Shown here in pieces: positions 55,638-58,487 of a stretch of 64,000 nucleotides of DNA. The position numbers were made by a program, and so were the translations under genes. Below the pieces are notes generated by a model. The model had not been told where the DNA came from. It was given only the letters and a program-made list of their open reading frames with translations, and ran no database searches. The DNA lies in the NCBI RefSeq assembly GCF_030296775.1, contig NZ_AP027742.1:2294001-2358000 (forward strand), given 5' to 3'. Each line of letters starts with the position of its first letter. The first letter of the stretch is position 1. Origin of the DNA: Claveliimonas bilis. GTDB lineage: Bacteria > Bacillota > Clostridia > Lachnospirales > Lachnospiraceae.

Positions 55638-56338
55638 ATGTCTGATAAAATTATACAACTAAATGAGGACTTAATAAAGCACGATTTAAAGGATCTTGTC
55701 TGTAACAGTGTCGAAGAAACTTTAAACGCTCTGCTCGATAAGGAAGCCGACGAATTAGTCAACGCTGAAAAGTATGAGCGTTCTTCTGACCGTCAGGGAT
55801 ATCGTTCCAGTCATTATAAGCAGAATCTCCATACTACCGCTGAGGAAGTGGAGCTGAAAGTTCCAAAACTCAAAGGCATTCCTTTTGAAACTGCAATCAT
55901 TGAAAGATATCGGCGCAGAGAATCCTCTGTGGAAGAAGCTCTTATTGAAATGTATCTGGCCGGTGTTTCCGTCCGCCGTGTGGAGGATATCACCGAAGAC
56001 TTATGGGAACGAAAGTCTCTCCTGGCACCATCAGCAACCTGAATAAAAAAGCTTATGAGCATATCGAAACCTGGCGTACCCGTCCGCTTTCCGGGGATTA
56101 TCCCTATGTTTATGTGGATGGTGTTTATCTGAAACGCAACTGGGGGCGGTGAAATTCAGAATGTTTCCATCCTCGTTGCTATCGGAGTCAGTCAGGATGG
56201 CTGCCGGGAGATCCTTGGCGCTGCGGATGGCATGAAAGAGGATCGTGAAAGTTGGCGTTCTTTCTTTGTATGGCTGAAATAACGCGGGCTTACAGGTGTA
56301 CGTTTGATCATAGGCGATAAGAATCTCGGTATGCTGGA
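55638..56338 (+). pseudogene. IS256-family transposase, frameshifted and truncated
   Basis: The first 130 codons (MSDKIIQLNEDLIKHDLKD; SDRQGYRSSHYKQNL; VELKVPKLKGIPFETAI; EMYLAGVSVRRVEDITE) are the N-terminus of an IS256/MULE transposase. Three lesions follow. A G is missing near 56005 (TTATGGGAACG for TTATGGGGAACG). A G is gained near 56147 (TGGGGGCGG). A TAA nonsense codon lies at 56279. After GDKNLGMLE the frame runs directly into MATE sequence, so the third catalytic Glu and the right end are lost. It is inactive. Confidence 0.88.
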
Positions 56339-56852
56339 ATCCTTCTCCTATATGCCGGTACAGGATTTCGGAAATGCCTTCTCCACTTTTATTGCACAAA
56401 ATTTCGGGGCAAAAAAAGAAGACCGCATCAGACAGGGGATCAGAAGCGCATTCCTTGTTTCCTTTTTCTTCTGTCTGGCTGTCAGTCTTCTCGTCTGTAT
56501 CTTTGCCCGTCCTCTTATGCAGATCTTTGTATCTGCCGATGAGACGCAGATCATCGAAGCCGGAGTCCACTATCTTCGCATTGAAGGCTCCTGCTATTTT
56601 GGGATTGGTATTTTGTTTTTATTATACGGGCTGTACCGCGCTATCGCCCGCCCGGGCATGTCTGTCGTTCTGACAGTCATTTCCCTTGGAACCCGTGTGC
56701 TGCTGGCCTACACACTCTCTATGGTGCCGTGGATCGGGGTTACCGGCATATGGCTGTCCGTTCCGATCGGATGGGCTTTAGCAGACCTGACCGGAATCTT
56801 TGTATACCGGAGGTTGAACCGGCGCCGCTGCGCCACCAAACCGGTCTCCTAG
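56339..56852 (+). pseudogene. MATE transporter 3' fragment (second copy)
   Basis: About 171 codons starting SFSYMPVQDFGNAFSTFIAQNF, homologous to the last 170 residues of the full MATE gene at 53371-54723. About 13 residue differences are seen (for example GIRSAFLV for GIKSAFLT, MQIF for MKIF, RCATKPVS for RSNDKTAS at the end). It is joined in frame to the IS256 remnant but has no start of its own. It is most likely the stump of a former tandem MATE paralogue. Confidence 0.85.
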
Positions 56853-56870
56853 TTTGTCATAATCAAATGT

Positions 56871-57149
56871 TAGCGTCGGTGTACAAGGGGACAATACGCT
56901 CCAAGCCGCGTAATTTCGGGGATTTTCTTTGTTATCCTCATTCGGCGTACGTCCAGTACGCCTCAATCGTCTGCCTTGAAAAACCCCGAAATTCCTGCGG
57001 CTGGAGTCTGTGAGTCGGGAAGGAGCAGATTTTAGCCCCTTTTAGGCACTTGAACGACGCGTACAGAGACGTACGCGGAGTGAAAGTAACGAAGAAGGGA
57101 CTAAAATCTACCCTTCACCGACCGTGTTGCCCCTTGTACACCGACGCTA
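56871..57149. mobile_element. MITE-like element with terminal inverted repeats and two hairpin arms
   Basis: A 279-base stretch without a gene. Its ends are TAGCGTCGGTGTACAAGGGG and the exact reverse complement, both bounded by TA as in IS630/Tc1-mariner insertions. Between them lie arm A (56899-57006) and arm B (57014-57122), each an imperfect hairpin of about 100 bases whose tip carries GCGTAC. Arm A contains AATTTCGGGG paired with CCCCGAAATT, and arm B GATTTTAG paired with CTAAAATC. The right TA is part of the flavin reductase stop codon. Whether it is DNA-mobile or a structured RNA is not known. Confidence 0.65.
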
Positions 57150-57656
57150 CTCTTCCTTTTGCAGAATCCTTACAATTTCCAGCATATACATCTCATGGTA
57201 GTCCTTCTCCGGATAACATTTTATGTCATTCTCTTTTTCAATAAACAGTGTCGGATCCACCCACTGCGTATACTGTTTCTTTCCCACAATAATGAGTTCT
57301 GCCTCCTCTACTCCTACTGTCCCATCCACATAATAGGGATGAAGACCCGCAGCTTCCCATTTATTCATATCTTTTCCCGACTTTGTACCACAGATCTTCA
57401 ATGCTTCCCGGTAACCGTCCGGCAGGAAAGATATAGTGAGCATATCATTCTCGTCTGCAAATTTTTTGGTATAGCGCTGAGGGCGGATAAAAATTTCCAC
57501 AATACTTTTTCTCCAGAGTGTTCCAAACAACCCCCATGATGCCGTCATCAGATTATTTTCCTCTTCATCCCCTGCCGCAATCAGGATCCAGTCTTTATTT
57601 GTCCTTGTAAAGGGATTGAATGTCATATCTTCCACAGTAATTTCTTTAAATTTCAT
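57147..57656 (-). CDS. Flavin reductase-like FMN-binding protein
   Basis: A 169-residue protein of the flavin reductase/NADH-FMN oxidoreductase-like family. NLMTASWGLFGTLWRKSIVEIFIRPQRYTKKF is the FMN-binding part, followed by FTISFL-like MLTISFLPDG. The C-terminal half has GVEEAELIIVGKKQY. Cytosolic electron transfer or FMN binding is expected. Its stop codon lies in the terminal repeat of the adjacent element, so its last residues may have been changed by that insertion. GGAGG-like sequence precedes the ATG. Confidence 0.88.
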   Translation of the reverse strand: MKFKEITVEDMTFNPFTRTNKDWILIAAGDEEENNLMTASWGLFGTLWRKSIVEIFIRPQRYTKKFADENDMLTISFLPDGYREALKICGTKSGKDMNKWEAAGLHPYYVDGTVGVEEAELIIVGKKQYTQWVDPTLFIEKENDIKCYPEKDYHEMYMLEIVRILQKEE

Positions 57657-57707
57657 TTTCTTCCTCCGCTTGTCATTAATATATTATTATATCATTTTTT
57701 TCTGCGT

Positions 57708-58487
57708 CTATATCAATGTATAACCTCCGTCCACACACAACATCTGTCCGGTTGTATAGGCTGACAGATCTGACGCATAGAATACGGCAATCCCTCCTAG
57801 ATCCTGATCTGGATCTCCAAAACGCCGCATCGGTATATGGCTTAACAATTTGGATCTTACATCCGAATCTTCAAACAAAACTTTTGTAAGTTCTGTCTGG
57901 AAAAATCCCGGTGCGACCGCATTCACCGTAATTCCATGAGACGCCCACTCTGCTGCCAGCGCTTTTGTCATCTGCATCACACCGCCTTTGGCGGCCACAT
58001 AAGAAACGATATCCTCCCTTGCAACAACCTTTGCATTGATGGACGCAACATTAATAATCCGCCCTCTGATCTTTTTTTCTATCATATGCCTTGCCGCAGC
58101 TTGACAGGTAAAAAACACACCTTTCAGCTGTACCTCCTGTACCCTATCCCAATCTTCTTCCGTATAATCCACTGACGGTTTTCTGACATTGACTCCTGCG
58201 CTGTTCAAAAGGATATCCACATGTCCTGCCAAATCTACCGCCTCTGCCACCAGCTGGGAAGCACCGTTTTTCCCACTGATATCTGCTCGTAGTCCAAAAG
58301 CCTTTCCGCCGGTTTTTTTCTGTATTTCTCCTGCTGCTTTTTTACATTCTTCTTCTTTTCTGCTAGCAAGGATTACCTGTGCTCCTGCCTCCGAAAGAGC
58401 TTCTGCCATTCCCCTTCCAAGTCCCCTTGACCCTCCAACGATCAACGCATTTTTTCCGTTCAGAGAAAACATTTTTTCAAAACCCAT
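57708..58487 (-). CDS. SDR-family dehydrogenase, gluconate 5-dehydrogenase-like
   Basis: A 259-residue short-chain dehydrogenase. GGSRGLGRGMAEAL is the cofactor loop, LLNSAGVN the NAG-like motif, and VASINAK with YVAAK the catalytic Ser and Tyr-x3-Lys. The C-terminal VDGGYTLI is typical. Resemblance to IdnO/KduD enzymes and its place next to a GntR regulator, a GntP permease and an IlvC-like gene suggest a sugar-acid oxidation or reduction. It is divergent from the regulator with a 144-base gap. Confidence 0.85.
   Translation of the reverse strand: MGFEKMFSLNGKNALIVGGSRGLGRGMAEALSEAGAQVILASRKEEECKKAAGEIQKKTGGKAFGLRADISGKNGASQLVAEAVDLAGHVDILLNSAGVNVRKPSVDYTEEDWDRVQEVQLKGVFFTCQAAARHMIEKKIRGRIINVASINAKVVAREDIVSYVAAKGGVMQMTKALAAEWASHGITVNAVAPGFFQTELTKVLFEDSDVRSKLLSHIPMRRFGDPDQDLGGIAVFYASDLSAYTTGQMLCVDGGYTLI

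Follow-up and report, generated by a model that had tools for sequence, protein, structure and literature searches.

A TA-bounded MITE in Claveliimonas bilis with a conserved hairpin core that recurs beside unrelated end repeats in two phyla

Results

A palindromic element between two convergent reading frames

The window analysed here is a 64,000-nucleotide stretch of the Claveliimonas bilis genome, in which a 279-bp element sits between two convergent open reading frames (ORFs), a MatE fragment and a flavin-reductase-like ORF (Table 1). The MatE fragment (56304-56852; PF01554) ends 18 bases to the left of the element, and the stop codon TAG of the flavin-reductase-like ORF consists of the element's right TA plus the adjacent element base. 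Upstream of the MatE fragment lies the truncated N-terminus of a Mutator/IS256-type transposase (55638-56042; PF00872 profile positions 9-129 of 379). The PF00872 remnant and the MatE fragment are consistent with rearrangement of the zone to the left of the element. No ORF of at least 100 aa lies inside the element.

Table 1. Features of the element and of the reading frame at its right end (positions in the window).
Feature	Position	Strand	Basis
Two-arm hairpin-core MITE, whole element including both TA	56871..57149	.	Fold energy and full-length copies
Left TA, target-site copy	56871..56872	.	By analogy with two shortened sister copies, whose empty sites have a single TA
Right TA, target-site copy	57148..57149	.	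Sequence reading
Left terminal inverted repeat, 20 bp	56871..56890	+	Sequence comparison
Right terminal inverted repeat, 20 bp	57130..57149	-	Exact reverse complement of the left repeat, 20/20
Hairpin arm 1, covarying stem round conserved core 1 (pieces GTTATCCTC and TCGTCTGCCTTG), tip GCGTAC	56899..57006	+	Covariation, helices 2-4
Hairpin arm 2 (related to arm 1 in inverted orientation), with GCGTAC at the tip and core 2 on the minus strand	57014..57122	-	Covariation, helices 5-8
Flavin-reductase-like ORF, outside the element, stop codon overlapping the right TA	57147..57656	-	PF01613

The element is a palindrome at two levels. Its TA-bounded outer 20 bases (end repeat TAGCGTCNGTGTACAAGGGG) are exact reverse complements, and within them lie two successive imperfect hairpins of about 100 bases each, in which 56899-56927 pairs with 56978-57006 (arm 1) and 57014-57041 pairs with 57095-57122 (arm 2). 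The predicted fold is a three-way junction with an energy of −155 kcal/mol, compared with a shuffle mean of −81.9 (sd 5.1; z = −14.3; 0 of 200 shuffles equal). Because the two arms are inverted relatives of each other, both strands fold alike, and the opposite strand also folds strongly (z = −13.1). An initial annotation, made from the letters of the sequence, had described the inverted, TA-bounded ends, the two hairpins with GCGTAC in both tips and the three-way-junction shape, and had placed the right end in the stop codon of a flavin reductase gene and the left end 18 bases past a MATE remnant; all of these readings were borne out by the comparison of the ends, the arm coordinates, the shuffles and the Pfam matches.

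Two-arm copies are dispersed in Lachnospiraceae and their arms covary

The end-repeat pattern occurred in at least 120 stretches in genome contigs. Among the 80 matches listed, most were in genera of Lachnospiraceae (Mediterraneibacter, Merdimonas, Blautia and others), and some were titled Eubacteriales or Firmicutes; 17 of 397 genomes of the family had an end-repeat match. In viral contigs neither the end repeat nor either of two core patterns was found, and phage records gave no match to the core. Five draft loci (L156, L158, L202, L203 and L213) start about 1-130 bases from an end repeat, as if assemblers break there, so copy numbers taken from drafts may be too low.

Full-length two-arm copies numbered 29 distinct sequences of 275-284 bp among the loci listed, and 28 were aligned, with a near-identical second copy from C. 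bilis strain c-25 omitted. Covariation in the arms had been suggested at the outset as a check. RNAalifold on the 28 copies gave a three-way junction of 87 pairs, 37 of which carry compensatory, double-sided changes. When the 3' letters were shuffled, the mean was 23.0 double-sided pairs (0 of 500 shuffles as high as 37), and when the partners were slid by 1-3 columns, 5-12 such pairs remained. Further pair types were not in excess (70 vs. 70.2 in shuffles). The loop parts of the arms were better conserved than the stems (0.87 and 0.90 vs. 0.74 and 0.62), and end conservation was 0.91, a value that arises partly by choice, since the two-arm set was found via its ends.

Shortened copies and empty sites in two C. 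bilis strains

With up to three mismatches allowed, the end repeat had 27 matches in the element's own genome (one contig of 3.11 Mb) and 28 in the second C. bilis strain, c-25 (G001); the reversed control had one in each. The window's strain has one full-length copy, and its remaining paired copies are 45-70 bp long. Strain c-25 carries the 279-bp form twice, once at the same locus and once elsewhere (275 of 279 bases identical), as well as a 203-bp copy that corresponds to a 31-bp remnant in the window's strain, a case of shortening in place. Of 9 short C. bilis copies, 8 are covered by one portion from the left and one from the right of the full element, and arm deletions would mostly explain the short forms. 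None of the 59 distinct short or 37 distinct long sequences was found in identical form at unrelated sites, an outcome that is the same in both classes and so does not discriminate for mobility.

At five strain-specific sites, the joined 100-base flanks were sought in the other strain. Two of the five had an empty counterpart with a single TA, the second of them with diverged flanks; for the remaining three, the search found no match to the flanks. The filled forms of the two empty sites are shortened copies of 70 bp and 49 bp, so that TA duplication is seen directly for short copies, and we infer it for full ones. The proposal of a MITE with TA duplication held up, with many copies whose ends coincide and two one-TA empty sites of shortened copies. 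Multiple copies and empty TA sites, which the initial annotation had named as support for a MITE, were both found; hence the element is not a single-copy sequence. We class it as a MITE on its dispersed short copies with borders at the ends, its 20/20 bp terminal inverted repeat and its TA-duplicating sister copies. The element recurs at dispersed positions with the same borders, its sister copies lie at TA sites with a one-TA empty form, and its interior is a covarying fold.

A one-arm form carries the same core in two phyla

A covariance model built on the 279-nt form, with scores for the best four candidates in each genome and rough E-values, matched 41 of 397 family genomes. It also brought to light a one-arm form, about 163 bp long, whose ends are unrelated. 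We aligned 25 of the 27 one-arm elements with recognisable ends (two near-duplicates and the end-less L295 were dropped, and in nine rows the ends were placed manually at the TA border). Double-sided changes were present at 36 of 42 pairs of this alignment; shuffles averaged 23.3 and none of 500 reached 36, and with partners slid the count was 18-26. Identity was 0.79 and 0.84 in the two core pieces and 0.37 in the outer stems, which is nearly random between lineages.

The one-arm model matched 24 of 391 Clostridia genomes, 4 of them Lachnospiraceae and 20 from 11 further families (weakest match, E near 0.004). Copies are numerous in some genomes: when five were searched with the elements that they contain, each yielded 20-92 matching pieces, with partial and cross-family pieces counted. 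Nine Streptomyces plasmid records hold the core at 77.8-80.4% identity, and all six Streptomyces loci that were read matched the one-arm model (E 6e-9 to 3e-14), four of them over the full length. The unpaired bases of the core are retained across the two phyla. Size variants have either an extra hairpin at one place of the inner loop or a long tip. Rfam gave no match for the element (window 56000-58000) or for its relatives in the 11 loci scanned, where the only matches, a T-box and a tRNA, lay outside the elements.

Two copies in the Lachnospiraceae genome G272 (L389, L390) break off at the hairpin tip, which might reflect a cut at that point ahead of repair, and L395 reads by eye as a fold-back duplication across the tip, likely a product of template switching. 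Half-copies were considered as termini of a gene-bearing element and rejected, since inspection by eye showed them to be truncations, internal deletions, fold-backs or a contig end.

Members of different lineages have wholly different stems and end repeats; what identifies the family is a conserved hairpin core that lies about 56 nt inward of the TA. For this widespread family we propose the name hairpin-core MITEs.

The core lies at a narrow range of distances from the ends

Spacing was measured in a set of 57 chosen one-arm elements (size variants and Streptomyces included, near-duplicates kept), 3 of which had no recognisable core motif. In the 54 measured elements the distance from the left TA to the core was 51-58 nt, and 55-57 nt in 49 of them; all 58 ends of the two-arm copies (n = 29) lay 56-59 nt from a core. 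Since the motif was sought only 45-70 nt from the left end (50-66 nt in two-arm copies), the finding is the narrowness of these ranges and not their limits. The right-hand distance in one-arm elements was 53-58 nt in 49, 67 nt in two and 82-83 nt in three Streptomyces elements, and the two core pieces were 33-100 nt apart. In L445, L446 and L451, which form a Streptomyces subfamily of 188-189 bp, the right arm is about 26 nt longer and the left spacing is still 56 nt.

The spacing bears on two alternative explanations. The core could be the site of a host protein of replication, repair or segregation, or a cargo, which is independent of transposition and is carried by various MITEs; its conservation beside unrelated end repeats in two phyla is what one would expect of such a site. 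However, the constant spacing ties the core to the ends, and the core was found neither in the IS5 and IS630 loci read nor in phage records, so we regard a host site or cargo as unlikely, if worth some weight. Alternatively, the covariation could be unselected, if hairpin template switching at replication copied one arm onto the other during drift. The pairing is indeed nearly strand-symmetric, and one copy (L395) carries, by eye, the fold-back duplication at the tip noted above. Yet switching would erase unpaired core bases, which persist in two phyla, and the core-to-end spacing is fixed; an origin of the covariation in drift of this kind appears quite unlikely.

Some relatives share their ends with IS630-type and IS5-type transposons

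PF13358 (IS630 type, DDE_3) was found in 3 of 12 carrier genomes and PF13340 (DUF4096) in 1 of 15, so most carriers are without a detected partner of these two types. Neither domain had a match in either C. bilis strain.

In G272, the MITE ends are matched by those of resident IS630-type elements, namely L410 (18 of 20 bases), L409 (17) and L406 (16). L406 measures 1,277 bp and encodes a DDE_3 protein of 392 aa; against L410, none of 2000 shuffled ends did as well as the MITE end. That 9 of 12 carriers lack PF13358 could suggest that IS630-type elements are not involved, a view contradicted by these PF13358 loci, whose ends match those of the resident MITE. The MITE ends of G112, G067 and G132 also fit the G272 IS630 ends (17-18 of 20), those of G692 did so marginally, and those of G120 and G556 had no match. 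A second IS630-type element in G272 (L408, 848-2130) has ends CTAGTGCAATGTACCGTTGATATTT that by eye resemble those of the G120 MITE family, TAGTGCACTGACACGTTGACAT. The C. bilis ends fit the six G272 IS630 ends at no more than 6 of 20 bases, no better than shuffled ends, and in G013, a carrier of the two-arm form, the IS630-type locus L405 is without the two-arm end repeat.

An ordinary IS630-type MITE with a passive interior would account for the TA duplication and for the G272 ends, and IS630-type elements prefer CTAG targets. An ordinary MITE needs no conserved interior, however, and here the interior is conserved, covaries and is absent from the IS630 loci read; moreover, the same core sits on IS5-type ends in Streptomyces, and C. 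bilis has ends unlike the IS630 ends of G272 and no PF13358. We consider such a passive MITE very unlikely. The assignment to the IS630/mariner type in the initial annotation stands for the one-hairpin relatives in G272 but not for the window's own copy, for the reasons just given, and the Streptomyces partners are of IS5 type.

The ends of the Streptomyces MITEs L445/L446, CTAGGGCCTGTCCGGCGGATCA, recur at L447 (22/22 left, 21/22 right), a 1.7-kb stretch with an IS5-family gene between MITE-like ends. L448 has the same ends, and its incomplete gene table lists no transposase. L449 holds two IS5-family elements (957 and 905 bp) with similar ends, the second of which differs from the left end of L441 at 2 of 22 positions. 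The Streptomyces IS5-type reading frames match PF13340 and PF01609. Two of the six Streptomyces core loci (L442, L443) had 10-11 mismatches of 22 to the IS5 ends tested. In G112, a two-ORF IS5-type element and an adjoining 166-bp MITE (L452) share 20/20 left and 19/20 right end bases; this MITE has a weak core-model match (27.1 bits, E 0.001), and another G112 IS copy abuts a MITE with a good core match (2e-11) but different ends. The core model had no match in the IS5 loci L447-L450 or the IS630 loci L405-L410.

In G112 an IS5 element lies at the CTAG that a MITE end forms (L456, 1231-1397), and at L403 one MITE lies at another MITE's CTAG end. In L447, on a Streptomyces plasmid, a 201-aa protein without a Pfam match (1910-2515) lies alongside the IS5 transposase between the IS5-type ends. 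L448 lists an ORF at the same place, and the protein is possibly the product of a passenger gene.

No transposase was found between C. bilis-type end repeats among the 120 end-repeat loci listed. Inward-facing end repeats 450-4000 bp apart occurred at 7 of the 120, which were examined as candidate autonomous partners. L125, L194 and L240 proved to be the outer ends of two separate MITEs, and L163 has host-like genes inside (dapF-like and shikimate-dehydrogenase-like, named by eye). Ten ORFs were scanned in L187, L212, L237 and L125; 8 had a Pfam match, none of them to a transposase. The plasmids searched with the end repeat gave nothing better than E 3.

For the relatives, the shared ends support mobilisation in trans by transposases of two different families, and we infer the same for the window's copy. 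Judged by these end matches, different transposases seem to move elements that have one core in common.

Pair statistics favour a folded DNA

The initial annotation had also allowed that the strong pairing could mean a structured RNA or a DNA that acts by its shape. The structure is strongly supported by the covariation, whereas an RNA as its carrier is made less likely by the balance of G-U and A-C pairs. On pairs predicted from both strands, one-arm elements (43 chosen, 40 after removal of near-duplicates) had 20 G-U and 40 A-C cells, and two-arm copies (29, 9 kept) had 13 and 16. The benchmark was bacterial large SRP RNA of the same class, strand-oriented (54 genomes matched, 27 of 30 loci used, 24 kept), with 54 G-U and 8 A-C on both-strand pairs and 159 and 8 on its own-strand prediction. 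GU/(GU+AC) was 0.45-0.52 for two-arm copies (0.33-0.52 for all elements) vs. 0.87 for SRP RNA (two-arm vs. SRP RNA, P = 6e-5), in counts that are blurred by post-insertion mutations, which push the balance towards equality.

Six family consensuses, taken on the better-folding strand with pairs predicted on either strand, were intermediate (G-T 20 vs. A-C 9). With DNA parameters, that strand was the better-folding one in all 7 copies tested, and with RNA parameters all 6 consensuses had one strand that folded better; the Streptomyces segment L444 is an exception, in which the other strand folds slightly better. Around 50 elements with flanks, ORFs were called mechanically: 5 elements lay inside an ORF of at least 100 aa, 9 between divergent, 7 between convergent and 27 between tandem ORFs, and 2 at an edge. 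Core orientation relative to tandem genes was 14 vs. 9 (23 cases with a readable core), with no clear bias. Terminator-like sites were absent, and there was one promoter-like site, near chance.

The elements could represent a mobile or domesticated structured non-coding RNA, with a core that acts after transcription and a palindrome that is its gene. Strong covariation, conserved internal loops and optional extra stems typify RNA families, and the consistent strand preference, together with the surplus of G-T over A-C on the better strand, points the same way. Against this, the GU balance is far under that of SRP RNA, orientation relative to genes is without clear bias, Rfam gives no match, transcription signals are absent or near chance, and the two-arm form has one core per strand. 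We hold a functional RNA to be unlikely, though worth some weight. Since the pair statistics are unlike those of functional RNA, folding as DNA is favoured, and we read the structure as one kept in DNA, with some weight on one strand.

Discussion

We think it probable that the C. bilis element is a non-autonomous MITE of the hairpin-core family, that a partner transposase acts on it in trans, that its interior is folded as DNA and that its core is contacted in transposition. Because the ends of the relatives are shared with autonomous TA/CTAG-targeting elements, a DDE transposase encoded elsewhere would cut and insert them, of IS630 type in one Lachnospiraceae genome and of the IS5 two-ORF DUF4096 type in Streptomyces. 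In C. bilis the partner may be lost, or may be of a type other than PF13358 and PF13340. The fold of the interior is probably adopted by DNA, as a hairpin on one strand or as a cruciform. During transposition the transposase or a host factor probably contacts the core, whose distance from the cleavage site is fixed. The two-arm, 279-bp form would offer one core per end, in inverted orientation.

A broader reading is that the element is defined by its folded DNA core and not by its ends, with lineages swapping ends to suit the resident TA-targeting transposase (IS630-type in Clostridia, IS5-type in Streptomyces). The observation of one core with the ends of two transposase families makes this reading more likely, and also that of an ordinary IS630-type MITE; we put forward the swapping of ends as a tentative but serious possibility.

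Several known elements resemble parts of this anatomy. According to the accessible passages of PMC3049150, the RUP of pneumococcus is a MITE related to IS630-Spn1. IS630-type insertion sequences and their MITEs are like hairpin-core MITEs in their TA ends and CTAG context, with the close end matches in G272; they differ in the core, absent from L405-L410, and in C. bilis neither the domain nor similar ends were found. For the IS5 group, an element with CTAG direct repeats and an IS427 group with two CDS appear in the accessible part of PMC9241763. The two-ORF DUF4096 (IS427-like) group, with its DUF4096 and DDE_Tnp_1 domains, has ends identical to those of Streptomyces L445/L446 and near-identical to those of L452 in G112, and differs in the lack of a core-model match at its loci and of PF13340 in C. 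bilis.

ERIC is a long imperfect palindrome with TA ends. In enterobacteria it is a MITE of variable copy number, as stated in the accessible portion of PMC10969869. Hairpin-core MITEs, which we liken to ERIC by description and not by sequence comparison, are likewise long imperfect palindromes; unlike ERIC, they have had stems and ends replaced and only the core kept, in two phyla. The attC site of integrons acts as a folded single strand with a variable stem and is recognised through its structure; it differs from hairpin-core MITEs in having no TA duplication and another enzyme, and serves as a lead to mechanism only. BOX of pneumococcus is a MITE with a stable fold and a variable number of interior modules, for which the accessible passages of PMC3049150 describe no cross-phylum core or fixed core-to-end spacing. 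REP palindromes (GTAG and CGTC types) are dispersed hairpins, the CGTC repeats being without a known transposase in the accessible text of PMC3733652; as presented there, REPs are 20-40 bp long with a one-sided tag, compared with about 160-280 bp and two TA ends in hairpin-core MITEs. Neither Rfam nor the open-access literature searched, which covers few subscription journals, contains a description of the element.

The class of the element is ordinary, a MITE, but its anatomy is unusual: a cross-phylum hairpin core lies at a fixed distance from exchangeable ends. Bacterial MITEs are commonly viewed as the emptied ends of a single insertion sequence. In hairpin-core MITEs it is the interior hairpin that is conserved, with compensatory evolution, and the ends that vary, those identified matching two transposase families. 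This opens tests of whether a transposase selects the small elements that it moves by a DNA fold as well as by end repeats, and of how non-autonomous elements switch partners. If lineages do swap ends around the core, one transposon parasite would persist across phyla and transposase families.
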